A stretch of DNA of 64,000 nt from Caulobacteraceae bacterium (GTDB lineage Bacteria; Pseudomonadota; Alphaproteobacteria; Caulobacterales; Caulobacteraceae): the NCBI GenBank assembly GCA_025450315.1, contig JANWHQ010000019.1:1-64000 (forward strand). Direction: 5' to 3'. The position numbers were made by a program, and so were the translations under genes. Shown here in pieces: positions 5,133-18,367 of this stretch. Each line of letters starts with the position of its first letter. Position 1 is the first letter of the stretch. The notes beneath the pieces are model-generated. The model was given only the letters and a program-made list of their open reading frames with translations. It did no database searches and had not been told where the DNA came from.

Positions 5133-5146
5133 TGGCGCACCCGACA
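5133..5146. repeat. attL: 14-bp copy of the tRNA-Arg 3' end
   Basis: TGGCGCACCCGACA matches exactly 18291-18304, which is the CCA terminus and acceptor stem of tRNA-Arg on the minus strand. Similarity continues with a 5-base imperfect stretch followed by a shared CGAACC, giving 22 of 25 matches. It lies 145 bp upstream of the integrase start, the usual position for an element that integrated into a tRNA 3' end. Confidence 0.85.
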
Positions 5147-5264
5147 CGAACCGAACCCCCGTCCGTCGTAGGCCGTGTAGGTCCGAAAACTGCTTTATTT
5201 ACAGCAGGTTTCTGGATTGCCCGTCCTTGACGGTCCGCCGGTGTGCGCCTAAATCCGTGTCAAA

Positions 5265-5286
5265 TGTTGGGGTGGATGTTGGGGTG
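5265..5286 (+). promoter_or_regulatory. Left arm-type repeats overlapping the int ribosome-binding region
   Basis: TGTTGGGGTG occurs at 5265-5274 and 5277-5286, a 12-bp period. The same pair with the same spacing is at the right end (18214-18235). The second copy's GGGG lies six bases before the int ATG and likely serves as its Shine-Dalgarno. If these are integrase arm sites, bound integrase would cover its own translation start region, giving autorepression. Confidence 0.6.
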
Positions 5287-5290
5287 AAAC

Positions 5291-6571
5291 ATGGCTCGGC
5301 AACTTGCAAAGCTGGATCCCAGGCGGGTCGCGACGCTCACAAAGCCTGGTCGCCACAGCGATGGCGGTGGCCTGTATCTCGTTATAGACAAGAGCGGCGC
5401 GAGGCGGTGGACGTTCATCTACCGCTGGAAGCGCCGCGGGGAGTCAGGCCCGGGGCGACTGCGCGAAATGGGCCTCGGCTCGCTGAACGCGGTCGGTCTC
5501 AAGGAGGCTAGGGAGGCTGCGGCAGAGGCACGGCGGACGCTCGCCAAGCGCATCGATCCTATCGATGCGAAACGTACGGCTGACAGCATCCCGACGTTTG
5601 GCGAGGTGGCGGACCTCCTGCTCGCTAACAAGGCTGTCGAGTTGCGAAGCGATAAGTCCACGGCGCGCGTGCGCAGGGCGCTGGAGACCTACGCGGCCAA
5701 GCTACGTCCGATGGGCGTCGACGCCGTCGATACCGCGGCGGTGCTCGATGTGCTCAAGCCTATTTGGACGGAGAAACACGAGACCGCCCGTAACGTGCGT
5801 GGCTACATCGAGGCCGCCTTGAACGCCGCTAAGGCGAAGGGCTACCGGACCGGTGACAACCCGGCGGCTTGGCGCGGCCACCTGGACCATCTGTTGCCCA
5901 AGGGCCGGAAGCTCGCACGGGGCCATCACCCGGCGCTGCCTTACGGTCAGGTGCGGAGCTTCGTGGCCGAGTTGCGCGAACGTCCGGCGACAGCCGCCAG
6001 AGTTCTGGAGTTCCTGATCCTGACCGCGTCCCGTTCGGATGCCGCGCGCGGCGCAACATGGGGCGAAGTTGACCTTGAGAAGTGCGTCTGGAGCGTGCCG
6101 GCGGCACGCATGAAGCGCCGGCTCGGTCAATCGCAGGAGGCCCACCGCGTGCCGCTGTCGCAGCGTGCTATAGCTCTGCTGGACGCCATCAAACCCGACA
6201 AGGTGGACCCCCACGCGCTGGTATTTCCAGGCGAGCGCAGCGGGAAGCCGCTCACCGACGCTGCCTTGTCGAACCTTATCGACCGTATGCAGAGTAGTGG
6301 CGAGCCCAGGTGGGTTGATGAGGACGGCCGCCCCATCACGGTCCACGGCTTTCGATCCACCTTCCGCGACTGGGCTGGCGATGAGACCCACTTCCCGCGG
6401 GAGCTTATCGAGGCAGCGCTTGCGCACGTTGTCGGTGATGAGGCTGAGCGCGCCTATCGGCGGAGCGACGCACTTGAGAAGCGCCGCGCGCTCATGGAGG
6501 CGTGGGCGGCATGGTGTCTGCCGGCAGCCGGCGACAACGTGGTGCAGCTCCAGCCGGCAGGTGCGGCGTGA
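5291..6571 (+). CDS. int: Tyrosine-type site-specific integrase
   Basis: 426 aa. N-terminal arm-binding (DUF4102-type) domain at about 1-90 (GLYLVI, WTFIYRWKRRG), core-binding domain at ~100-190, catalytic domain at ~215-400. Catalytic residues are readable: R248 in TASRSDAARG, H352 and R355 in HGFRSTF, H379 in LAHVVG, and nucleophile Y389 in ERAYRRSD. This is the P4/GI-type integrase arrangement, about 400-430 aa, which usually targets tRNA 3' ends; the tRNA-Arg duplication at 5133 and 18291 agrees. It catalyses strand exchange between attP and attB; excision probably needs the AlpA-like protein at 7134. Its last codon overlaps the next gene by GTGA. Confidence 0.95.
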   Translation: MARQLAKLDPRRVATLTKPGRHSDGGGLYLVIDKSGARRWTFIYRWKRRGESGPGRLREMGLGSLNAVGLKEAREAAAEARRTLAKRIDPIDAKRTADSIPTFGEVADLLLANKAVELRSDKSTARVRRALETYAAKLRPMGVDAVDTAAVLDVLKPIWTEKHETARNVRGYIEAALNAAKAKGYRTGDNPAAWRGHLDHLLPKGRKLARGHHPALPYGQVRSFVAELRERPATAARVLEFLILTASRSDAARGATWGEVDLEKCVWSVPAARMKRRLGQSQEAHRVPLSQRAIALLDAIKPDKVDPHALVFPGERSGKPLTDAALSNLIDRMQSSGEPRWVDEDGRPITVHGFRSTFRDWAGDETHFPRELIEAALAHVVGDEAERAYRRSDALEKRRALMEAWAAWCLPAAGDNVVQLQPAGAA

Positions 6572-7002
6572 CCGAGGAGGGCCCGAAGCGCCTGGCTCTC
6601 CTTGGGACACGCGCGGCCGAGAACAAGCTCACGGAGGAGGAGTGGCGTGAGTGGCTGTCTCTTTCCACCACGCCGGAGGCCGTGGCCGAGCGGGCAAAGT
6701 GGGAGTTGCGGTCGGCCCGCAGCGAGGCAGCGGAATTATTCGAGGCATTGTCCAAGCGGTATGGCGAAGCAGCGGCTCGACAGAGTTTCGAGGAGACCAT
6801 CGACCGAGAGGCTGGGCGGCCCCCGCGCGTCGCGCTTAACAACCTCATGCTAGAGCACTACGCGTGGCTGAAGGAGCATAAGGTCCGAAACGCCCGCCTA
6901 CGCTCCGCTGAGGTGTTTGCCTTCGCGTTTAAACATAGCGAAGACCCCGTGGGTGCCGGGCTAGAGCGCCTAAAGTATCTCCTGAAGAAGCGTCGGAGAT
7001 AA
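6568..7002 (+). CDS. Small helical protein of unknown function, coupled to int
   Basis: 144 aa if started at the GTG at 6568, which shares GTGA with the integrase stop; the frame is open further upstream but would overlap the integrase gene more. The sequence is charged and predicted helical, rich in Glu/Arg/Ala (EEEWREWLSL, EAAELFEALSKRYGE, ARQSFEETIDREAG), with a basic C-terminus ending LLKKRRR. No family is recognised. Overlap with int suggests a role in recombination or element control. Codon use is a little less GC-extreme than the chromosome around it, as in the rest of the element. Confidence 0.65.
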   Translation: MTEEGPKRLALLGTRAAENKLTEEEWREWLSLSTTPEAVAERAKWELRSARSEAAELFEALSKRYGEAAARQSFEETIDREAGRPPRVALNNLMLEHYAWLKEHKVRNARLRSAEVFAFAFKHSEDPVGAGLERLKYLLKKRRR

Positions 7003-7019
7003 TCGCCCGACCGCCCTGC

Positions 7020-7060
7020 GATGTGGGGTAATAAACCCGGCTATTATGCCCCGCCACATC
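7020..7060. promoter_or_regulatory. 41-bp imperfect palindrome upstream of the AlpA-like gene
   Basis: GATGTGG...CCACATC arms enclose GGGG/CCCC and TAATA/TATTA pairings around an eight-base centre. It lies between the int-linked gene and the AlpA-like gene, so it could terminate the first transcript or be an operator for the second. It is the clearest dyad in this 131-bp gap. Confidence 0.45.
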
Positions 7061-7133
7061 AATCCCGGACGCATGCATCCTTCTGTGTACGCCACGCAAT
7101 TCAGCGGTGGCTGCAACAGAAGAGTGAAGTCAA

Positions 7134-7355
7134 ATGAGCGTTCATACAGAAGGCAACGAAAGCGGCCCCACGATTGAGGGCGCGTTCTCCATCAAGCGAT
7201 TTTGCCGCGAGTACGATGTAGGCAGGAGCTACGTTTACGAGCTGATCAAGGCGGGGAAGCTCAGGGCCGTTAAGGCGTCCACCCGGACCCTGATCTTGAA
7301 GCAAGACGCCGAGGCTTGGGCCGAGGCGCTGCCGGCGATCAACCCCGCCCACTGA
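7134..7355 (+). CDS. AlpA/excisionase-family helix-turn-helix protein
   Basis: 73 aa with a purine-rich AGAAGAG ribosome site. The core FSIKRFCREYDVGRSYVYEL followed by IKAGKLRAVKASTRTLI is the helix-turn-helix plus wing of the MerR-like excisionase/AlpA family, and DAEAWAEALP is the usual closing helix. In P4-like elements AlpA activates int or acts with integrase in excision. The position downstream of int and upstream of the replication gene fits that switch role. The hairpin at 7020-7060 is a candidate operator. The specific target is inferred, not seen. Confidence 0.85.
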   Translation: MSVHTEGNESGPTIEGAFSIKRFCREYDVGRSYVYELIKAGKLRAVKASTRTLILKQDAEAWAEALPAINPAH

Positions 7356-7436
7356 ACGTTTCCAGCTCTTGCGCCTAGCATAGCCCCGGCTTCGTCGCCG
7401 GGCGCTGTGCTGATGCGCCCCAAAAAGGTATCCCAC

Positions 7437-9443
7437 ATGTACGGCAACATCAGCACCGCACCGGATCACGTGCGCGAACTTCGGCTCACGCTCCTGGCGA
7501 ACGACTACGAGCCCGTCGCCGTTGCTGGAAAGGCCCCGGTTAGCTCCGGCTGGCAATCCAGAGGCCCGACCGCCGACAGCGTCGCTGCGGAAATCGACAA
7601 CTTCCCCGAAGCCCTCAACACCGGGCTCCGCACGGGGGGCCTCGTCGGAGTGGACATCGATCTGCTGGACCCCGAAGAGGCGGCCTCGGCGCAAGCCCTG
7701 GCCGAACAAGAGCTTGGGCCCACCCCCTTCGTCCGGGTCGGCCAGAAGGGAATGCTGCTCTGCTACGCCAACGCCGAGCCGCTCCGTAAGATTACCGTCG
7801 CCAGTCGCGATGGGGCCAAGGTCGAAATCTTGGGCGTCGGCCAGCAATTCGTCGCGTATGGCGATCACCCTGCGACGGGCGAGCCCTACCGTTGGACGGG
7901 GAGCGCGGAGCCCGCCGCGAGCGCGGCTTGGGAGCTGCCGCCCGTCTCGCCTGACCAGATCAGAGCGCTGGCCGACCGGCTGGCGAATTGGCTGCGCGAG
8001 CGGCACGCCGATGTGAAGGTCTCCGGTGACATGGGACGCTCTCCGGCGGAGGCCGTTCAGGTGCTGCCCCACCGCAACCTGCCGCCCCTGCCCCCGGAAG
8101 AAATTCGGGCGCGGCTGTATGCCTGCGATCCCGATTGCGAACGTGACCAATGGCGAAATCTCATCGCCGCGCTCCGGGCGACGCCCTGTTCCGACCCCGA
8201 GTTCGACGCCTGTGCGCTTGCCGAGCAATGGTCCACGACCGCGAGCCGGGACTTCGGCGATGATCCGGCGCAAGCGGCCCACAGGGTTTTCGAGACTATG
8301 CCGCCCAGGCACGGCGGCCTCCGGTCCGGCAGCTTCATTCGGATGACCGACGACGCCGGCTACAGCGGCCCCACGGTCGCCCACTCTGGCTCGCCGATCC
8401 CGGCGAATGGACAACCCTACCCTCGGCCCAAGTCTGCGGCCGAACTGGCATTCGGTGACTTTCCGCGGCCCGCGTTCGCGTGGGACCGCTTCATCCTTCA
8501 ACGTCACGTCAATCTGCTCTACGGCGACGGCGGCACCGGCAAGACCTTGCTCGCCGAGCATATCGCCTGCGCGGTGGCGGCTGGCCGTGAACTGTTCGGG
8601 TTCGAGACGGTGCAGATGCCGGTCCTGTTGGTGCTGGCGGAGGATGATGACGGGGAGACCAAGGCGCGACTGGAGGCCATCTGCCGAGCGCTCGGCCTGA
8701 ACCTGCCGGACCTCCCGTTGTCTATCTGGTGCCTGCCCGGCTGGGACCTCAACCTCGCCCACATCCGCGATGACGGCAGCTACACCGGCGGCCCGTTCAT
8801 GGAGCCGCTCAGGGCCGAGCTGGAGCGGATCGGGCCCTGCCTTCTGATCCTCGACACGGTCACGGACATCGCCGCGCTGGACGAGACCAAGCGCCCGCCG
8901 GTCAATGCGCTCTGCAAGGTCATCCTGGCGGGGCTGTGCCGGGAGTTTGGCGCGACTGTCCTGGTCAACGCCCATCCGAGCAAGGCCGCCATGGCGGACG
9001 GCAGCGACTATGCAGGATCGACGGCCTGGAACAACGCCGTGCGGAACCGCCTGTCGTTTAAACGACCTGATGCGAAGTCGCGCCGCCGCCTCTTGGAGGT
9101 GGCGAAGGCGAACTACGGGGAGCCGACCGAACTGGAATTGTACCTCATCGGTCCTGCGCTGGTGACGATGGCGGAGATCGCGGAAGACAGAGCCAGCGAG
9201 CGAGAAGCCGTGTGGGAGGTTGTTCGGGACCTTATTGCCGCGGGAGTGGACATCGTCCGCGGCAATGGAGCCGGGCAAAAGCCGCGGGATGTCGCCGAGG
9301 CGATCCACGAGCGCCTGAGCATCCGCCTGGACGCGAAGCAGGTGCTGGATCACCTCAACGCTTTGGAGCGGGCCGGTCGCCTTGCCTACGAGAAGGGGGG
9401 AAATGGAAAGCGCGGCCAGCGGGCGGGCTTTCGACTTCCCTGA
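7437..9443 (+). CDS. Bifunctional prim-pol / RepA-like helicase
   Basis: 668 aa from the ATG at 7437 (AAAAAGG upstream); an in-frame GTG at 7407 is less likely. The N-terminal prim-pol domain (about 10-190) carries the metal-binding GVDIDLL at 71-77. A PriCT-2-like helical segment follows (EEIRARL...DQWRNLIAALRA, about 220-250). Then an AAA/RecA-type ATPase of the RepA/AAA_25 kind: Walker A GDGGTGKT at 363-370, a Walker-B-like LLILDTVTDI, and VNAHPSKAAM. The C-terminus looks like a winged helix (VLDHLNALERAGRL). Such proteins prime and unwind DNA at an element's own origin, implying that the excised form can replicate. An iteron-like stretch lies 290 bp downstream. Confidence 0.85.
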   Translation: MYGNISTAPDHVRELRLTLLANDYEPVAVAGKAPVSSGWQSRGPTADSVAAEIDNFPEALNTGLRTGGLVGVDIDLLDPEEAASAQALAEQELGPTPFVRVGQKGMLLCYANAEPLRKITVASRDGAKVEILGVGQQFVAYGDHPATGEPYRWTGSAEPAASAAWELPPVSPDQIRALADRLANWLRERHADVKVSGDMGRSPAEAVQVLPHRNLPPLPPEEIRARLYACDPDCERDQWRNLIAALRATPCSDPEFDACALAEQWSTTASRDFGDDPAQAAHRVFETMPPRHGGLRSGSFIRMTDDAGYSGPTVAHSGSPIPANGQPYPRPKSAAELAFGDFPRPAFAWDRFILQRHVNLLYGDGGTGKTLLAEHIACAVAAGRELFGFETVQMPVLLVLAEDDDGETKARLEAICRALGLNLPDLPLSIWCLPGWDLNLAHIRDDGSYTGGPFMEPLRAELERIGPCLLILDTVTDIAALDETKRPPVNALCKVILAGLCREFGATVLVNAHPSKAAMADGSDYAGSTAWNNAVRNRLSFKRPDAKSRRRLLEVAKANYGEPTELELYLIGPALVTMAEIAEDRASEREAVWEVVRDLIAAGVDIVRGNGAGQKPRDVAEAIHERLSIRLDAKQVLDHLNALERAGRLAYEKGGNGKRGQRAGFRLP

Positions 9444-9811
9444 ACCGTTGCAAGCTCGGTCGTGAGCCCGTCGCAAGGGGTGTCGCAGGTACAGCGCGGG
9501 GATCTCGGGCGAACGACGGCGGACATCGCAAGGTGCGGCGTCGTATCCCCCTATCCCCTGGACTGCGACTGCCCTAGATCGGGCCGCCTCCGTCCGACGG
9601 ACGGTGCGCCCGCTTCGCCGGCCTTGGTGTTGGCCTCGCGCGTGAAAAGTTAGCGTATGTGCGTGCCTGAGAGAGGTCTATTCGGGGCATTTTCCGAGAG
9701 GACCTGGCAAGACTTCACCCCGGCGCATTTGCTAATGAGGTTAGCACATCCGATGTGCGGTTAGCGCTCTACGGGCGTTAGCAATCGATCGGCAGGGGCG
9801 TTGAGGGTGTC
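9444..9811. other. 368-bp non-coding region with iteron-like repeats
   Basis: No convincing gene on either strand. The right part (9731-9782) has three GTTAGC copies and two perfect dyads, listed separately. The left part shows only scattered short GC dyads. It separates the replication gene from the convergent HNH/73-aa pair and is a good position for an origin. Confidence 0.5.
9731..9782. repeat. Iteron/dyad cluster, possible origin of the element
   Basis: GTTAGC occurs at 9740-9745, 9760-9765 and 9777-9782. GCTAA(TGAGG)TTAGC forms a perfect 5-bp dyad at 9731-9745 and GCACATC(C)GATGTGC a perfect 7-bp dyad at 9744-9758. Direct repeats interleaved with dyads downstream of a primase-helicase gene resemble satellite or plasmid origins. 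It could equally be an operator region. Confidence 0.4.
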
Positions 9812-10033
9812 TCAGTTTCTATCGGGGAGGCACATTCGGCAGTTCGAATAGTTACGTGCCCCGACCCGCAGTTTGCCCTCCCCATCCGCAAAGACGCGTG
9901 CTGCCTCGTATGTGTCGGCTTCCTCGCACGTCACCCGCCAATCGTAGCCACTCCAGCGCTCTAATGCGACACAGCCGTGCCGGTGGATACGCACCGCCCG
10001 TTTGCGCGGTGACATGTACACGACAAAGCCCAT
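9812..10033 (-). CDS. 73-aa Cys/His-containing protein downstream of the HNH gene
   Basis: ATG start 33 bases after the stop of the 10067-11050 gene and in the same direction, so the two probably form an operon. Visible features: VVYMSPRKRAVRIHRHGC with closely spaced His and Cys, a Trp-containing middle, TYEAARVFAD, and CRMC near the C-terminus. The His/Cys pattern could bind zinc. No named family is recognised. Being small and second in the operon, it might be a partner or inhibitor of the HNH protein; that is inference only. Confidence 0.6.
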   Translation of the reverse strand: MGFVVYMSPRKRAVRIHRHGCVALERWSGYDWRVTCEEADTYEAARVFADGEGKLRVGARNYSNCRMCLPDRN

Positions 10034-10066
10034 CGGCCCTCCCGCTCGCGCACGTGTCTTGCGGCC

Positions 10067-11050
10067 TCACTCCGCCGCCTGTATGGCCCGGATCAGTCGC
10101 CGTGCGAGCTGATCATCGTCCGCGCCCTTCCAACGATTGATGAAGCGGCAAACGACCTGCACATTGTCTGGCGTATAGTGGCCGGCGCTGTCGATCCGAT
10201 CCAGCGACGCAAGCATCTGATCGTCTTCGCATTCACCGCGATAGCCCAACGGCAACCCCGTGAGAGCGCACCGATCTTCCTGTTCGCCCATCAGCCTGAG
10301 GATTAGAGCCTCGCACTCCTCGCGGCTCAAGTTGGTCTGCTTCTCTTTCATTCGGCGCTCGACCGTCTGGCCGTTGGCTTGAGCCACGGTCGTCAGCATC
10401 GTGTTTGCCATCTCGGCGGCCGACTTCTCTTTGGGGGAAAAGATGCGGCCGGACATCCGCTTCGCTTCTGCGGCCTTCCCGGCGAAAAGGGGCAGCGTAT
10501 GCCATCGGTCCAGCGGTTCACCTGCGATGAGCGCGCGCCCATAGTCGGCATAACCGCGGTCGTTGCTGAGCTGCTGGAACGTCGCCTCGGTAGCGAGGAA
10601 GTCTCGTGCCTTCGGATGCAGGGCCGACCAACGTAGCGGGCGGCCAGCGCCGTCTCGATCAGACCAGGGCTGGCACGGCTTTTCGAGCACCCACACCTTG
10701 GGGCCGTCGCGTTCGGGCCGGTCGGCGTCCTGTAGCGTCTCCGTTAGGCCGGTCGGCAGGGACATCGTCCACCACAGCGCGTCGCCCTGACGGCTGAGCC
10801 ACAGGTCGCCATTCGTGTCCCTGAGTTCTTCCATCAGATTGAACCAGCGACCGGCGGTCGGTTTGGTCGGAGGCAGCCCGAGCGCAGTCAACGCATGGGC
10901 AACGGACCATTGTATGTAGCCCTCTCGGTCACCGGACTGCCAAAACTCATGGGCGCCCACGACATCAAAAGTCGCGAGGGTGCTGTGTGCGAGGCACTGG
11001 GGCCAGAGGGTATTCCCCTGGCCGAAATTGGAGATGTAGACGCGGTCCAC
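10067..11050 (-). CDS. HNH-type nuclease-like protein with an unidentified N-terminal domain
   Basis: 327 aa, GTG start with GGGGA upstream. The C-terminal ~70 residues read as an HNH variant: C261-A-L-T-G, then ASLDRIDSAGHYTPDNVQVVC at 281-301 followed by N305 and K308. The SLDRIDS...Y..DNVQ form replaces the classical first His and is seen in several phage and restriction HNH proteins. The N-terminal ~200 residues open with VYISNFGQGNTLWPQC and are rich in Trp (FWQSGD, WSV, GRWFNLM, LWWTMSLP, PWSDR), with CQPWSD and ALHPKARDFL later; I do not recognise this domain. Aromatic-rich N-terminal modules joined to HNH domains often read modified DNA. It is divergent from hsdR with only 70 bp between starts. 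Confidence 0.65.
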   Translation of the reverse strand: MDRVYISNFGQGNTLWPQCLAHSTLATFDVVGAHEFWQSGDREGYIQWSVAHALTALGLPPTKPTAGRWFNLMEELRDTNGDLWLSRQGDALWWTMSLPTGLTETLQDADRPERDGPKVWVLEKPCQPWSDRDGAGRPLRWSALHPKARDFLATEATFQQLSNDRGYADYGRALIAGEPLDRWHTLPLFAGKAAEAKRMSGRIFSPKEKSAAEMANTMLTTVAQANGQTVERRMKEKQTNLSREECEALILRLMGEQEDRCALTGLPLGYRGECEDDQMLASLDRIDSAGHYTPDNVQVVCRFINRWKGADDDQLARRLIRAIQAAE

Positions 11051-11120
11051 CCGGCGGTCCCCGATCCGTCCAATGCTGGCATTTGCTCAGGCAATGCTTC
11101 CCCCGCATAGTCAACTCCAA

Positions 11121-13850
11121 ATGGCAAAGCCCGAAGAACGCGCCCGCCAGCTCATCGACGGCCAGCTCAGGGCGGCGGGCTGGGCGATCCAAGACCGCGA
11201 GGAAATGAACCTCGGCGCGGGTCTTGGCGTCGCGGTGCGCGAGTATCCGCTTGCCGCCGGTCCTTGCGATTACCTCCTGTTCGTCGACCGCCGTGCCTGC
11301 GGCGTGCTGGAGGCCAAGCCCGAAGGCAAAACGCTGTCGGGCGTGGCGGAACAGGCGAGCGGGTATCAGTTTGAATTGCCTGCGCACCTAGCCCACTGGG
11401 GCGATCCGCTCCGGTTCGACTACGAGGCTAGCGGCTCGGAGACGCTGTTCAGCGACCGCGCCGACCCTGAGCAGAGGTCCCGCTATGTCTTCAGCGTCCA
11501 CCGCCCTGAGACCTTGCTGGAGTGGCTGAAAAACGGCTCCTCGCTCCGAGCGCGGTTCACGACCATGCCGCCGTTAGTGACGGATGGCCTGCGCGACTGC
11601 CAGATCGAGGCGATCACGGCCCTGGAGGTCTCTTTGGCCGAGGCCAGGCCTCGCGCCCTGGTGCAGATGACCATGGGGGCGGGCAAGACCTTCACGGCCG
11701 CCACACAGAGCTACCGCCTGCTCGCCCATGCGGGGGCGTCCCGCGTGCTCTTCTTGGTGGATCGCAACAACCTCGGCCGGCAGACCCTCAAGGAGTTCCA
11801 GGCTTACCGGCCCCCTGGAACGGGCCGGCTGTTCACCGAACTCTACAACGTCCAGCGCCTTGGCCCGGCGGGCCTCGACCCTGACGCCAAGGTGGTGATC
11901 TCCACCATCCAGCGCGTCTTCGCCCAGCTCTCCGGCCAGGAGCTGCCGGAGGAGGACGAAGAGGCCAGCGCCTATGAAGGCGAGACCCAGGGCGCGCCTC
12001 AAGAGGTCTCCTATAGCCAGGCCCTGCCGCCCGAGACCTTCGACATCGTCATCGTGGACGAATGCCACCGCTCGATCTATGGCCGCTGGCGACAGGTGCT
12101 GGAGTACTTCGACGCCTTTCAGATCGGTCTGACGGCCACCCCGTCGGCGCACACCTTGGGCTACTTTCAGAAGAACCTGGTCGCCGAGTACCCCTATGAG
12201 CGTTCGGTAATAGACGGCGTGAACGTCCCGTTCGACGTGTTCCGTATACGGACCGAGATCGGCGAGCGCGGCGGCAAAGTGCCCGCCGGCTTCACGGTGC
12301 CCAAGCGCGACCGGCACACCCGCCGCCAAAGGTACGAGGAGCTGACCGACGACCTGATCTACGCACCCTCCGAACTCGACCGCTCGGTGATCGCGCCCAA
12401 CCAGATCAGGACGGTGCTGGAAACCTACCGCGACACCCTGCCGAACGACCTGTTCCCCGGCCGCACCGAGGTCCCCAAGACGCTGATCTTCGCCAAAGAC
12501 GACCATCACGCCGAGGAGATCGTCCACATCGCCCGCGAGGTGTTCGGCAAGGGCAACGACTTCGCTAAGAAGATCACCTACCGCGTCACCGGTATCAGTC
12601 CCGAGGAGCTGATCTCGGCCTTCCGCAACCAGTATCACCCCCGCATCGCCGTCACCGTCGACATGATCGCCACCGGCACTGACATCAAGCCGGTGGAGGT
12701 GCTGATCTTCCTGCGCGACGTGAAGTCCGCCCTCTACTTCGAGCAGATGAAGGGCCGGGGCGTACGGACCATCAACCCCTCCGACCTGACCAACGTCACG
12801 CCCGACGCCCGCACCAAGGATCGCTTCGTCCTGATCGATGCCGTAGGCGTCAGCGAAAGCGCCAAGACCATCGCCCCGCCCCTGGAGCGCGAACCAACGG
12901 TCGCCTTCCACAAGCTCTTGGAACAGGTCGCCAGCGGCCGCAGCGATCCCGAGGTGGTCTCCACCCTGGCCGTCCGCCTCGCGGCCCTGGACCGCAAGCT
13001 AAACGAGGAAGACCACGCGCGGGTCATCGAGGCCACGGGCGGGCGCACGATCAAGGACATCGCCTCAGGCCTTCTGGAAAGCCTGGACAATGACCGCATC
13101 GCCGAGGCGACCGAGTCCCCCGTCACGGACGCACGGTTTGACGCCACGGCCGCGCGGATGCGCGCCGAGGCCCTGCGTGTGCTGACTGACGCCCCCGCTG
13201 TACGAAAGCTCCTGAACGACCTGAAGACCCAAAGCGAGGTGGTAATCGACGAGTTTAGCCGCGACGCGGTGGTCTCCACGGGCTTCGACGAAAAGGCGGC
13301 CACGGAGATAACCGGCCGCTTCCGCCAGTTCCTGGACGAGAACCAGGACCAGCTCACCGCCTTGGCAATCCTCTACGGCAAGCCCCACGCCGCCCGTCGG
13401 CTCACCTACGCCAGCCTGGAAGAGCTTCGCGCCGCCCTCGCTCGGCCGCCGTGGCTGCTGCAGCCGGTCGCGCTCTGGGCGGCCTACAAGCGGCTTTCCA
13501 ACGGCGCGGTTAGAGCCGACCCGGCACGCGTGCTGACCGACATAGTGTCTCTGGTCCACTACGCCCTCGGCCAGCGCGAAAGCCTTGCGCCCCTGTCATC
13601 AGAGGTGGCCGGGCGGTTCAACCTCTGGCTCGGCCGCGAGGAGCGTGCGGGCCGTAAGTACGACGCTGAGCAGCAGGGTTGGCTGGAAGCGATCCGCGAC
13701 CATCTGGCTGCGAATATTGACCTCGGCTTGCGCGACCTTCAGGAACTTCCCCGGTTCTCTGAGCGTGGCGGCGTCGTAGCGGCGCGGGCCGCCTTCGGTG
13801 CGCGGCTTCCCGAGCTGATTGAAGACCTGTCGGACGCGTTGGTGGCCTAG
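11121..13850 (+). CDS. hsdR: Type I restriction enzyme R subunit
   Basis: 909 aa from the ATG at 11121 (MAKPEERARQ); the frame is open 48 bases further upstream without a good ribosome site. The N-terminal nuclease domain shows D50, E64 and K66 (the PD-(D/E)xK triad, ending VLEAK) and the Q78/Y82 motif in EQASGY. The motor follows: Walker A MGAGKT at 185-190, DECH at 313-316, TATPSA at 338-343, later ATGTDIKPVEVLIF and QMKGRGVRT. It cleaves unmethylated foreign DNA after ATP-driven translocation, in complex with HsdM and HsdS. The order R-S-M is less common than M-S-R or R-M-S. hsdS begins 14 bases after the stop. Confidence 0.95.
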   Translation: MAKPEERARQLIDGQLRAAGWAIQDREEMNLGAGLGVAVREYPLAAGPCDYLLFVDRRACGVLEAKPEGKTLSGVAEQASGYQFELPAHLAHWGDPLRFDYEASGSETLFSDRADPEQRSRYVFSVHRPETLLEWLKNGSSLRARFTTMPPLVTDGLRDCQIEAITALEVSLAEARPRALVQMTMGAGKTFTAATQSYRLLAHAGASRVLFLVDRNNLGRQTLKEFQAYRPPGTGRLFTELYNVQRLGPAGLDPDAKVVISTIQRVFAQLSGQELPEEDEEASAYEGETQGAPQEVSYSQALPPETFDIVIVDECHRSIYGRWRQVLEYFDAFQIGLTATPSAHTLGYFQKNLVAEYPYERSVIDGVNVPFDVFRIRTEIGERGGKVPAGFTVPKRDRHTRRQRYEELTDDLIYAPSELDRSVIAPNQIRTVLETYRDTLPNDLFPGRTEVPKTLIFAKDDHHAEEIVHIAREVFGKGNDFAKKITYRVTGISPEELISAFRNQYHPRIAVTVDMIATGTDIKPVEVLIFLRDVKSALYFEQMKGRGVRTINPSDLTNVTPDARTKDRFVLIDAVGVSESAKTIAPPLEREPTVAFHKLLEQVASGRSDPEVVSTLAVRLAALDRKLNEEDHARVIEATGGRTIKDIASGLLESLDNDRIAEATESPVTDARFDATAARMRAEALRVLTDAPAVRKLLNDLKTQSEVVIDEFSRDAVVSTGFDEKAATEITGRFRQFLDENQDQLTALAILYGKPHAARRLTYASLEELRAALARPPWLLQPVALWAAYKRLSNGAVRADPARVLTDIVSLVHYALGQRESLAPLSSEVAGRFNLWLGREERAGRKYDAEQQGWLEAIRDHLAANIDLGLRDLQELPRFSERGGVVAARAAFGARLPELIEDLSDALVA

Positions 13851-13863
13851 GGGGAACGACCGA

Positions 13864-15282
13864 GTGCTAAGGGGGGCAAGACGGGCTGCCACGCCGACAG
13901 AGCCAGTTGAGGGGCCGTGGGCGCTGCCAGAAGGATGGCGGTGGGAGCGTGCTGCCGAGATCGCCAATATTGTTGGAGGTGGGACGCCGCGCAACGCTGC
14001 GGACCCTTTGAACTACGACCCAGCCGGAACGCCATGGATCACCCCCGCAGACCTTTCGGGGTACGACCGCGCGATCATCGGTCGAGGTGCCAGAAGCCTC
14101 TCTGAGCAAGGCCTGAAAAGATCGGCGGCACGGGTAATGCCAGCCGGCACGGTTCTTATCTCGTCAAGGGCTCCGGTTGGCTATTGCGCTGTCGCCAGCC
14201 GACCCGTTGCCACCAACCAGGGGTTCAAGAGCCTAGTCCTGCGTGACGGCATCGACCCATTCTTCGTCCGATACTATGTGCTCCGTTCAAAGCAGTACCT
14301 TCAGGACAACTCCAGCGGCACGACCTTCAAGGAATTGTCGGGCTCAGCCATGGGCGAGCTCATGTTCCCGCTAGCGCCGCTCGATGTCCAACACCGCATT
14401 GTCGCTCGGATAGACGCGCTGTTTGCCGAGATCGAGGAGGGTGAGCAGGCGCTGGCAGCCGCGACGGAAGGGCTAGAGGCGTATCGCAAGGCTCTGTTCA
14501 AGGCCGCTGTCACCGGCGACCTAACCGCTGACTGGCGGAAGGCCAACCCGCCCGCCGAGACCGGTCAGGACCTCATGCGCCGCGTCCTCGCCGACCGTCG
14601 AGCCCGCTGGGAAGCAGAGCCGAGCAACACCAAAAAGCACTACAATGAACCCGCTGGTCCAGGGTCCGACGAGAGGCCCAATTTGCCGGAGCGATGGGCC
14701 TGGACCCGGCTGGAACAGCTAGGTGAAGTGGTGAGAGGTGCCTCGCCCCGACCTGCCGGACATCCGAGGTATTTTGGAGGTACTATTCCGTGGATCACTG
14801 TGGGATCTATCACACGTGACAATGGCATCTACCTCCATCGAACGGATACTTTTCTCACTGAGGAGGGGCGCCAGAAAAGCAGGTTCATACAGCCGGGCAC
14901 ATTCCTGCTAACCAATAGTGGTTTTACACTCGGTGTGCCAAAGATATCAATGATCGGAGGGTGCATAAACGACGGAGTAGTTGCGATAAATATTTTGGAC
15001 GAAGATGTAAAGGTCTTTCTATATTTCTACCTTTCAACGAAGACTGAAGAATTGAGAAATATAAGGCGGGGACAAGATCAGCCCAATCTGAATACCTCGA
15101 TAGTAAAAGATATACGCGTGCCGATCCCGCCCGTTAGCGAGATAAGACAAATTAATCGTCTTCTGCTTGATTGTGGGGATCGGCTTGTCGGGCTGGAGCC
15201 AACGCTCCGGGGCGCAACTCGTGGTCCGGCCCTCCGCCAAGCCATCCTCGCCGCCGCTTTCCGGGGAGACCTCGCGGTATGA
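13864..15282 (+). CDS. hsdS: Type I restriction-modification specificity subunit
   Basis: 472 aa from the GTG at 13864, preceded by AGGGGGA eight bases upstream. Two target-recognition domains and two conserved helical repeats are visible. TRD1 runs about 15-170, from PEGWRWERAAEIANIVGGGTP. The first helical repeat has QHRIVARIDALFAEIEEGEQ and EAYRKALFKAAVTGDLT. TRD2 starts at LPERWAWTRLEQLGEVVRG and ends near PPVSEIRQINRLLL; the closing ALRQAILAAAFRGDL mirrors the first repeat's end. The DNA of TRD2, roughly 14,900-15,130, is markedly AT-rich (two 60-base lines counted at about 40% and 32% GC), unlike everything around it. That marks a recently imported recognition domain. The stop overlaps hsdM as ATGA. 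Confidence 0.93.
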   Translation: MLRGARRAATPTEPVEGPWALPEGWRWERAAEIANIVGGGTPRNAADPLNYDPAGTPWITPADLSGYDRAIIGRGARSLSEQGLKRSAARVMPAGTVLISSRAPVGYCAVASRPVATNQGFKSLVLRDGIDPFFVRYYVLRSKQYLQDNSSGTTFKELSGSAMGELMFPLAPLDVQHRIVARIDALFAEIEEGEQALAAATEGLEAYRKALFKAAVTGDLTADWRKANPPAETGQDLMRRVLADRRARWEAEPSNTKKHYNEPAGPGSDERPNLPERWAWTRLEQLGEVVRGASPRPAGHPRYFGGTIPWITVGSITRDNGIYLHRTDTFLTEEGRQKSRFIQPGTFLLTNSGFTLGVPKISMIGGCINDGVVAINILDEDVKVFLYFYLSTKTEELRNIRRGQDQPNLNTSIVKDIRVPIPPVSEIRQINRLLLDCGDRLVGLEPTLRGATRGPALRQAILAAAFRGDLAV

Positions 15283-16736
15283 ATGAAGCGGCACTGGTCT
15301 CCAAGGTCTGGAACTACGCCCACGTGCTGCGCGACGAAGGCGTCAGCTATGGCGACTATGTCGGCCAGATCAGCTTCCTGTTGTTCCTCAAGATGGACGA
15401 GGAGCGCACAACCTATCTGAACGAGCCCTCGGCGATCCCCGCCGAGTACCAATGGGACGCGCTTCGCGGCAAGTCGGGAGAGGCGCTGGACGTCCACTAC
15501 AAGGCCGCGCTCGCGGCCCTGTCAAAACGCACGGATTTCGTCGGTGCGCTGTTCCTGAAGGCCGAGAGCAAGATCAACGATCCGGCCCGCCTCCAGCGCC
15601 TTGTCAGTCTGATCGACGGCGAGACCTGGATGGGCATCGACGTCGACGTCAAGGGCACGATCTACGAGGGCCTGCTGGAACGCAACGCCGGCGAGGTGAG
15701 GAGCGGGGCGGGCCAGTACTTCACCCCCCGCGCCCTGATCCAGGCCATGGTCGAGGTGGTCGATCCCGAGCCGGACCAGACCATCTGTGACCCCGCTTGC
15801 GGCACCGGTGGTTTCCTGCTCGCGGCCTATGAGCACATGAAGAAGAAGCCCGCCGCCCAGGACCGCAAGGTCTCAGGCCGGCTGAGGGAAGAGACCTTCC
15901 AGGGTTACGACATTGTGGCCGACGTGGTGCGGCTGTGCGCAATGAACCTCTATTTGCACGGCATCGGCGGGGCCGCCTCACCGGTGGAGGCGCGTGACGC
16001 GCTGCTGTCCGACTCTGGCGGGCGGTACGACTTGGTGCTGACAAATCCGCCCTTCGGCAAGCGTCAGTCGTTTCGCATCGTCAACGAGGAAGGTGGCATC
16101 GAAACCGAGCGGCAGGAGTACGTCCGCGAGGATTTCACGGTCATCACCTCCAACAAGCAGCTCAACTTTCTCCAGCACGTCATGACGATCCTGAAACCGG
16201 GCGGGACCGCCGCTGTGGTGCTGCCAGACAACGTGCTGTTCGAGGGCGGCGCGGGTGAGACGCTGCGTCGACGCCTACTGCGGGACTTCAACTTACACAC
16301 TCTGCTGCGCCTGCCGACGGGCATCTTCTACAGCCAGGGCGTGAAGGCGAACGTCCTGTTCTTCGAGAAGGTCGCCGGCGGGGAGCACATCGCGACCAAG
16401 GACCTCTGGGTCTACGACTTCCGCACCAACCAGAACTTCACCCTGCGCGAACGCCCGTTGAGGCGCGCCGATCTCGATGACTTTGTCGCCTGCTACCAGA
16501 GCGCGCTTGGTCCCCACATGCGCAAGGCGACCGAGCGGTTCCGCAAGTTCAGCTACGACGAGCTGGCCGCCCGTGACAAGCTGAACCTCGACATCTTCTG
16601 GCTCAAGGACGACGGCCACATAGACCCCGACAGCCTGCCCCCTCCCGACGTGGTCGCCGCTGAGATTGTGGAGAACCTGGAACTGGCGTTGGAGAAGTTC
16701 AGGAAGGTCGCCGCTGAACTGGAGCAGGCGGGCTGA
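15279..16736 (+). CDS. hsdM: Type I restriction-modification methyltransferase (M) subunit
   Basis: 485 aa from the ATG at 15279, which shares ATGA with the hsdS stop. N-terminal HsdM helical domain (VWNYAHVLRDEGVSYGDYV...ISFLLFLKM). The N6-adenine methylase core has the SAM motif DPACGTGGFLLAAY and the catalytic NPPF (VLTNPPFGK), preceded by the AGQYFTPRALIQAMV motif. It methylates adenine at the site read by HsdS and protects the host. Tight coupling to hsdS and to the following mrr indicates a single transcript from the 11,051-11,120 region. Confidence 0.96.
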   Translation: MNEAALVSKVWNYAHVLRDEGVSYGDYVGQISFLLFLKMDEERTTYLNEPSAIPAEYQWDALRGKSGEALDVHYKAALAALSKRTDFVGALFLKAESKINDPARLQRLVSLIDGETWMGIDVDVKGTIYEGLLERNAGEVRSGAGQYFTPRALIQAMVEVVDPEPDQTICDPACGTGGFLLAAYEHMKKKPAAQDRKVSGRLREETFQGYDIVADVVRLCAMNLYLHGIGGAASPVEARDALLSDSGGRYDLVLTNPPFGKRQSFRIVNEEGGIETERQEYVREDFTVITSNKQLNFLQHVMTILKPGGTAAVVLPDNVLFEGGAGETLRRRLLRDFNLHTLLRLPTGIFYSQGVKANVLFFEKVAGGEHIATKDLWVYDFRTNQNFTLRERPLRRADLDDFVACYQSALGPHMRKATERFRKFSYDELAARDKLNLDIFWLKDDGHIDPDSLPPPDVVAAEIVENLELALEKFRKVAAELEQAG

Positions 16737-17662
16737 TGGCGGTTCCCGATTATCAGACAGTAATGCTGCCGCTCTTGAAGCGCGTGGCGACGGCTGAGCG
16801 CCCCGTTGCGATCAAGCAGCTTCTACCTGTCCTTGCGCAGGACATGGACCTATCCGACGCTGACCTGGCAGAGCGCCTGCCCAGCGGTCGGCTGGGCCTG
16901 TTCCACAACCGCGTCCACTGGGCGAAGCTTTACATGACACGGGCGGGTCTACTGAGATCGCCGCGGTGGGGGCTATTTGAGATCACCGATCAGGGGCGTG
17001 CCTTGCTGTCGGCGCATCCCACCCGCATCGACAACGGCGTCTTGGATCGTTTCCCAGAGTTCAAGGCGTGGCGGACGCATGAGGCGAAGCCAGGCGGCCC
17101 GGCGGCTGTCAGCGCCGCCCTGGATCAAGTCGCGGCGACGGCGACCCCGGAAGAGCGGATAGACCTTGCCCGCCGAGAGCTTGAGGCGGGGTTGCGCGCG
17201 GAGTTGCTGGACCGGGTCCGCCAGATGGACCCGTCGGACTTCGAAGGGCTGATCATCCAGCTTCTGGTGAAGATGGGATACGGCCAGGGCCGTTCCGAGC
17301 TTGCCGAAGCATTGGGCGGGAGCGGCGACGGCGGGGTGGACGGAGTGGTGAACCAGGACCCGCTCGGCCTTGACCGGGTCTATATCCAGGCAAAGCGGAA
17401 CAAAGAGGGCAACACCGTCAGCCCCGCCGAGATCAACAGCTTCATCGGAGCCCTCAACATCAAGCGGGCCAACAAAGGCCTTTTCGTAACCGCGTCCACG
17501 TTCACTCGGCAGGCGCGCGAACACGCCGGCTCCTCTACCCTTCACGTCGTCCTAGTCGACGGCGACCGCCTCGCCGAACTCATGGTCCACTATGGTGTCG
17601 GCGTACTGGTGCGCGACACCATAGAGGTGAAGGCAATAGACGAGGGTTTCTTCTCCGACTGA
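16736..17662 (+). CDS. mrr: Mrr-type (type IV) restriction endonuclease
   Basis: 308 aa; the ATG shares one base with the hsdM TGA. Residues 1-95 form the Mrr N-terminal winged-helix domain (RVHWAKLYMTRAGLL, RWGLFEITDQG). The C-terminal Mrr catalytic domain shows E170 in DPSDFEGLI, D202 in GSGDGGVDG and Q218/K220 in YIQAKR, a complete PD-(D/E)xK-type site. Length matches E. coli Mrr (~304 aa). Mrr proteins cut DNA bearing foreign methylation. Direct fusion of its reading frame to a type I modification operon is notable, because the host's own HsdM mark must be tolerated. Confidence 0.93.
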   Translation: MAVPDYQTVMLPLLKRVATAERPVAIKQLLPVLAQDMDLSDADLAERLPSGRLGLFHNRVHWAKLYMTRAGLLRSPRWGLFEITDQGRALLSAHPTRIDNGVLDRFPEFKAWRTHEAKPGGPAAVSAALDQVAATATPEERIDLARRELEAGLRAELLDRVRQMDPSDFEGLIIQLLVKMGYGQGRSELAEALGGSGDGGVDGVVNQDPLGLDRVYIQAKRNKEGNTVSPAEINSFIGALNIKRANKGLFVTASTFTRQAREHAGSSTLHVVLVDGDRLAELMVHYGVGVLVRDTIEVKAIDEGFFSD

Positions 17663-17940
17663 GGTTGCGCGCGCCGCGTTTAAACAGTGCCCCGCGTGTC
17701 GCCGACCGCCGCGTGCAAGGAAAGACACCTGCACGATTTCGTGCGACGGCGATCCGGCCCCACCCCCACCCCCACCCCGGTCTTTTTCAGGATGCGGCCC
17801 GACCTGGGGCCGCGAACGGCTGCCGGCAGATGGCGGCCGATCCGATGGAAAGGGTCAGAAGAGAGTTACAGGTAACATTTTGAACATTGCGCGCCGCCTG
17901 CGCATGCTCTCAGTAGGCAACCTTCAGATGGGAGGATGTC
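17663..17940. other. 278-bp intergenic region after mrr
   Basis: Contains a short C-rich microsatellite (CACCCC units near 17761-17778) and a GTTAC-AG-GTAAC dyad at 17865-17876 that could be an operator for the small gene at 17941. No other gene is supported. Confidence 0.4.
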
Positions 17941-18153
17941 ATGACCTATTCAGCGATTGCGACCCGCGTCCGCCATTTGGGTGGCGGCTACGCCAAGCCA
18001 TGCTGGATCGCGCACGTTAAGGCGGACAACGGCCTTACACGCGGACAAGCTCCGAACCGCATCGATCCGATATCTCGCGTCGCACCGTGCCCTCCGGCTA
18101 AGCGTCGCTTCATCGAGCGTGCGCTTCGGGACCTTGGTCTGATTTCGCCCTAA
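17941..18153 (+). CDS. Small conserved protein next to the right attachment site
   Basis: 70 aa, with a good Shine-Dalgarno (GGGAGG) seven bases before the ATG. The pattern [12 protein letters not shown]...APNR...PCPP...IERALRDLG reminds me of short conserved proteins found at the ends of alphaproteobacterial islands, though I cannot name the family. It is basic, with two Cys residues and PCPP. Its position 137 bp from the attachment site suggests a role in integration, excision or maintenance, but no motif proves it. Confidence 0.6.
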
Positions 18154-18213
18154 AACACTCGCGACGCCTGGACTGAAGCGCGATAGGCGTACCGGGGCTC
18201 GTCGACGTGTCTC

Positions 18214-18235
18214 TGTTGGGGTGAATGTTGGGGTG
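18214..18235 (+). promoter_or_regulatory. Right arm-type repeats
   Basis: TGTTGGGGTG at 18214-18223 and 18226-18235, identical in sequence, orientation and 12-bp period to the pair at 5265-5286. Both pairs are preceded by CGTGTC a few bases upstream. They lie 55 bp inside the attachment core. Best read as binding sites for integrase or its accessory factor. Confidence 0.6.
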
Positions 18236-18290
18236 GCCTGTTCCGGCCCCAATAAAACTCTAGTAAAATCAATTAATTGCCTTGCGGCCC

Positions 18291-18304
18291 TGGCGCACCC
18301 GACA
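18291..18304. repeat. attR: attachment core within tRNA-Arg
   Basis: TGGCGCACCCGACA, identical to 5133-5146. Its first three bases are the complement of the encoded CCA end, so the element's edge coincides exactly with the mature tRNA terminus. Confidence 0.85.
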
Positions 18305-18367
18305 GGATTCGAACCTGTGACCTCAGCCTTCGGAGGGCTGCGCTCTATCCAGCTGAGCTACGGGTGC
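18291..18367 (-). tRNA. tRNA-Arg (anticodon CCG)
   Basis: 77 nt on the minus strand. The acceptor stem GCACCCG pairs with CGGGTGC; the D-arm contains AGCTCAGCTGGATAGAGC; the anticodon stem CAGCC/GGCTG encloses loop CTCCGAA with anticodon CCG, which reads CGG arginine codons; the T-arm is ACAGG-TTCGAAT-CCTGT; then discriminator G and encoded CCA. All four arms are intact, so the gene should be functional despite serving as the integration site at its 3' end. Confidence 0.96.

Follow-up and report, generated by a model that had tools for sequence, protein, structure and literature searches.

What does a nuclease do that is encoded back to back with a type I restriction operon, and does it act together with the small protein encoded next to it? 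The locus is located in the window, the whole stretch of 64,000 nucleotides analysed here from a Caulobacteraceae bacterium, and contains a gene for a 327-residue protein with an HNH domain and an open reading frame of 73 codons (Table 1). An earlier note had described the two as co-directional, separated by 33 bp, divergent from hsdR, and part of a restriction-rich element, and all of these observations hold. The neighbouring genes encode an integrase, an excisionase-like HTH protein, a primase/AAA protein, HsdR, HsdS, HsdM, and Mrr. The 14 bp at the 3' end of the tRNA-Arg(CCG) gene are found as an exact direct repeat at the other side of the integrase gene. Thus, positions 5133 to 18304 of the window look like a single element of about 13.2 kb that is integrated in tRNA-Arg(CCG) and carries the restriction genes as cargo. 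A further open reading frame of 166 codons (window 6502-7002), which does not belong to a recognisable family, overlaps the end of the integrase gene.

Table 1. Features of the integrated element and of the two proteins under study (window coordinates).
Feature	Position	Strand	Basis
att repeat TGGCGCACCCGACA, distal end, just outside the integrase gene	5133..5146		
Tyrosine integrase of the element	5291..6571	+	
HTH_17 excisionase-like protein	7134..7355	+	
Prim-Pol/AAA_25 replication protein of the element	7407..9443	+	
Zinc-ribbon-like small protein, 73 aa, ATG start	9812..10033	minus	ORF and weak homologues
HNH nuclease with predicted reader, 327 aa, GTG start	10067..11050	minus	ORF and homologues
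Linker helices and HNH domain, residues ~195-327	10070..10468	minus	alignments, PHROGs, fold matches
N-terminal domain, residues ~1-187, Trp-rich, predicted PUA-superfamily/YTH-like reader	10490..11050	minus	models, Foldseek, conservation
hsdR (type I restriction subunit), transcribed divergently from the HNH gene	11073..13850	+	
hsdS, specificity subunit	13819..15282	+	
hsdM, N6-adenine methyltransferase subunit	15171..16736	+	
mrr-type (type IV) nuclease	16736..17662	+	
att repeat, 3' end of tRNA-Arg(CCG)	18291..18304		
tRNA-Arg(CCG) gene	18291-18367	minus	

Judging by its full-length homologues, the HNH gene is real beyond chance. About 35 of them were collected, a set that depends on the peptide patterns used for searching, with identities of 39-74% and the closest one in Brevundimonas (74%). 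The GTG start is consistent with the N-terminus M..VYIANFG conserved in the alignment. First relatives were obtained by tblastn against plasmids, a scan of genome contigs with the N-terminal alignment resulted in 34 loci, mostly from Alphaproteobacteria together with some Burkholderia-type and Alteromonas-type loci and one Geotalea genome, and nine further contigs came from IMG/VR. Annotated phage records contained no homologue. On unannotated loci the genes were predicted with a home-made caller, which at three of them failed to call the main gene. Within the window's own family, the Caulobacteraceae, full-length copies are sparse (three of 199 genomes), and several copies of the gene family (L007, L008, L010/L056) are broken by frameshifts, as expected for accessory genes with turnover. 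That neither protein fits a named defence family had been suspected from the beginning, and no Pfam, NCBIfam, or PADLOC match above cut-off was found for either. These searches also did not reveal a match to a housekeeping enzyme, which had been named beforehand as an argument against a role in defence, and the whole 327-residue protein did not match any solved structure. PHROGs matches just the last ~75 residues, to phage endonucleases, and this match is present in all 35 family members tested.

The earlier note had further put forward both proteins as a candidate new defence module, which could also be a toxin-antitoxin-like pair. Their location on the same strand and their close spacing are in agreement with such a module, as is the Shine-Dalgarno-like GGGAGG upstream of the ATG of the small gene, which has a GC3 of 0.69 and is probably a genuine gene. 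Its clustered histidines and cysteines (H..GC...C..CLP), already noticed before, are also present in weak relatives from other Caulobacteraceae genomes, the clearest of which is an open reading frame of 87 codons with HR.GC...C..CLP. However, these relatives are encoded away from HNH genes. The surroundings of about 40 HNH homologues were surveyed by tblastn and by HMM searches on six-frame open reading frames, and none of them contained a homologue of the small protein. Plasmids did not contain one either, and in G517, the only other genome with relatives of both proteins, they are on different contigs. Thus, the pair does not constitute a module, an explanation that we regard as very improbable, and the small protein is probably an unrelated neighbour of the HNH gene. 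A conserved pairing was rejected after searching plasmids, viral contigs, the 199 genomes of the family, and all collected loci.

Conservation of the 327-residue family is concentrated in two blocks, and models and alignments support a layout in which linker helices connect a reader-like N-terminal domain to a C-terminal HNH domain. The C-terminal block contains the HNH motif recognised earlier (SLDRIDS..DNVQVVC...N..K), with conserved C261, S-L-D284-R285-I-D-S, H291-Y292, N296, C301, N305, and K308. A beta-beta-alpha metal fold with the N...N..K signature is indicated by the PHROGs matches and by fold matches to the HNH domain of Cas9 and to PacI (3ldy, probability 0.99). The canonical first histidine of HNH nucleases after the aspartate is absent, and instead D284-R285 is invariant across the family. 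PacI is active despite missing the usual HNH histidine. It is also the sole nuclease aligned when the HNH profile is compared with the PDB, albeit weakly (E 1.6), and has the DR variant and the pattern DR.DS...Y...N...C...N..K in common with the profile. PacI differs in having no separate reader domain and in recognising an unmodified 8-bp site.

The N-terminal block comprises about 185 residues, of which W16, W37, W69, W93, W94, W129, W141, H145, and W183 are invariant or nearly invariant. The earlier note had proposed this Trp-rich region as a possible reader of modified or structured DNA and had suggested modelling it and searching for its fold. The modelling resulted in a confident AlphaFold structure (mean pLDDT 94.6 for the domain and 88.7 for the full protein), but the best matches, to YTH-type domains of the PUA superfamily, are weak (E ~0.02). 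In the Foldseek search against the PDB twelve YTH-domain chains came first, with E-values of 0.02-0.10, probabilities up to 0.91, and TM-scores of ~0.3-0.5, and no match had E <= 0.001. Among viral predictions an unnamed phage protein was the top match (E 2e-5) followed by an ASCH-domain protein, and the YTH and ASCH fold matches (E 0.01-0.1) are without sequence support. YTH, ASCH, and EVE all are PUA-superfamily domains, several of which are known base readers (PMC7897488, PMC7641849). Neither Pfam YTH nor EVE matched any of the 35 family members, profile-profile comparison with YTH and EVE gave nothing, and hhalign against a small YTH alignment reported a probability of 0.1%. An assignment to YTH or EVE by sequence was rejected because Pfam, the PDB profile search, and the profile-profile comparison were all negative, and the domain is therefore called PUA-like or YTH-like by fold only. 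In the sequences, the conserved tryptophans would be compatible with an aromatic cage for binding N6-methyladenine (m6A). Based on its predicted fold and on the exchange of domains described below, the N-terminal domain resembles a reader of modified bases.

Both halves of the protein are found in other combinations. In a Hyphomonas MAG (L046, 5365-6783) the N-terminal domain is fused to DUF3427 and T5orf172 (GIY-YIG-like) and the HNH domain is absent, and in four further loci (L012, 6945-8411; L076, L077, and L080) the linker and HNH domain follow an unrelated N-terminus of about 260 residues, which in L012 has no Pfam match. Such an exchange of readers among nucleases is a hallmark of modification-dependent restriction enzymes. 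EVE domains are fused to HNH, GIY-YIG, PLD, and PD-(D/E)XK nucleases (PMC7641849), and winged-helix readers are likewise fused to different nucleases (PMC11037411). The closest layout is that of the EVE-HNH modification-dependent endonucleases VcaM4I, TspA15I, and CmeDI, with VcaM4I consisting of a reader (residues 1-147), linker helices (148-178), and an HNH domain (179-309; PMC7897488). The window family shares with these the size of ~310-330 residues, the helical linker, and the C-terminal HNH domain, and its N-terminal domain would likewise be a reader with a PUA-like fold. However, its N-terminal domain is not EVE by Pfam or profile comparison, its HNH domain has Asp-Arg at the place of the canonical histidine, and it is recurrently coupled to type I operons. 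With the winged-helix type IV endonucleases it has in common that the reader is interchangeably fused to HNH, GIY-YIG, or PLD (PMC11037411), but the fold search with the N-terminal domain did not give a winged-helix match. PcaRCII is a methylation-dependent HNH endonuclease with a three-helix-bundle N-terminal domain and without a methyltransferase gene nearby (PMC8989522), two features in which it differs from the window family. In its predicted role, the family would resemble PcaRCII as an HNH defence nuclease forming a second line beside a restriction-modification (R-M) system.

Type I operons are recurrent neighbours of the family. Scoring a locus as type I if it contains hsdM plus hsdS or hsdR within the examined flanks, such operons are present in 15 of 36 family loci (the rows of the tree, window included). 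For comparison, 45 HsdM_N matches in ~270 Mb (96 genomes of the class) correspond to 0.0036 expected per 21.5-kb locus, a background that was determined by HMM, while tblastn/blastp was used for the loci. Ten of 35 loci contain an hsdM match as strong as E <= 1e-40 in tblastn (P ~6e-17), and even at ten times the background P would be ~3e-7. On the family tree the trait changes at least nine times and is thus not confined to one clade. The recurrent co-location with hsdRMS exceeds background, and the nuclease family is strongly linked to restriction loci. Homologues lacking the small partner and lying mainly outside defence loci had been named as the opposite outcome; the partner is missing. 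The nuclease is unnamed as the earlier note had supposed, but because it is associated with type I R-M operons, the family is better described as an accessory of known restriction systems than as a new system of its own.

At least three operon layouts combine hsd genes with the HNH gene. A 4-bp overlap joins the hsdS stop and the start of the HNH gene in L026, L029, L037, and L048. In L026 the order is hsdR-hsdM-hsdS-HNH, in L048 it is hsdS-HNH-mrr with a 4-bp overlap also of mrr, and L025 has the order hsdM-hsdS-x-hsdR-YgjP-HNH. This recurrent translational coupling to hsdS could mean that the protein is a true type I subunit, whose N-terminal domain would dock on HsdRMS or on stalled or translocated DNA and whose HNH domain would add nicks or double-strand cuts without any reading of modifications. 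Two of the four fusions with the alternative N-terminus also sit in type I loci (L012 and L080), which would fit as well. However, more than half of the family loci do not contain hsd genes in the examined flanks, the window copy is transcribed divergently, and in L046, at a distance from hsd genes, the N-terminal domain is combined with another nuclease. A type I subunit therefore seems unlikely.

The family occurs in other settings as well. In L047 a SNF2-PLD helicase and an Eco57I/TaqI_C-type methyltransferase take the place of the hsd genes. The Mesorhizobium loci L009 (104-8701) and L056 encode multiubiquitin, ThiF, DUF6527, PD-(D/E)XK, and UvrD-helicase proteins upstream of the HNH-family gene, and in Burkholderia (L005, 10001-11914; L052) it directly follows a T6SS set of VgrG, polymorphic toxin 15, and a GAD-like protein and is itself followed by a second HNH gene. 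Further copies are in integrase-bearing elements, and in the three related loci L017, L027, and L028 the gene is located between the phage tail tube and tape-measure genes of a common prophage tail module. These prophage-tail copies are possibly superinfection-exclusion morons. The adjoining integrases, the copies within tail operons, and the resemblance of the C-terminus to phage endonucleases could indicate a selfish or moron-type HNH nuclease that belongs to mobile elements and prophages and whose proximity to restriction genes would reflect the accumulation of both in the same islands. It is hard to reconcile this with the tight operon coupling that several lineages show to hsdS and mrr, and with the repeated changes of the hsd trait on the tree. 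In addition, known homing nucleases do not, to our knowledge, have DNA-binding modules resembling the large conserved N-terminal domain, and we consider a purely selfish nature quite unlikely.

With moderate confidence we favour the 327-residue protein being a restriction endonuclease of two parts that depends on modification (type IV-like) and that type I R-M islands carry as an accessory. Against this reading stand the weak fold scores of the N-terminal domain, the arginine in place of the first HNH histidine, and the many homologues outside type I loci, in prophage tail operons, T6SS clusters, and other elements. By analogy with VcaM4I, the predicted PUA-like domain would use an aromatic pocket to bind a modified base, possibly flipped out, in DNA entering the cell. 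As long as the reader is empty, the linker helices would keep the HNH domain from acting, and binding would release it to cut the DNA nearby. Phage restriction would be divided such that the type I system cuts DNA without the host mark while the reader-HNH enzyme, like the adjoining Mrr, cuts DNA whose foreign modification hides it from the type I system.

Generic m6A is an unlikely target. The host encodes a protein with a RAMA domain, which, from its sequence, we take to be a CcrM homologue, and it has its own HsdM, so that reading m6A in any context would be unlikely and either another modification or m6A in a limited context would be read. There are YTH restriction proteins such as YTH-McrB of Thermococcus gammatolerans, and YTH-HNH proteins have been named as future work (PMC11037411). 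The window family is similar in that YTH domains rank first in the fold search, but it differs in having no detectable sequence similarity and weak fold scores, and generic m6A reading would clash with the host CcrM. For m6A-dependent PLD-wH nucleases, some of whose genes lie near EcoEI-like enzymes, a location near type I methyltransferases is reported where the methylated contexts differ (PMC11037411), a precedent for the linkage seen here. It could be imagined that the family represents an unnamed YTH-like sensor of adenine modification within an HNH nuclease, co-expressed with adenine-methylating type I systems and distinguishing host m6A at CcrM and HsdM sites from foreign marks by sequence context or other chemistry, but this more specific proposal is doubtful.

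Together, the analysis reveals a nuclease family that Pfam, NCBIfam, and PADLOC have missed and that is recurrently tied to a very common multi-subunit type of restriction. If it is a true modification-dependent cutter, type I islands would themselves contain a countermeasure against phages protected by modified bases. This raises the puzzle which modification could be safely attacked in hosts that have N6-methyladenine in their own genome.
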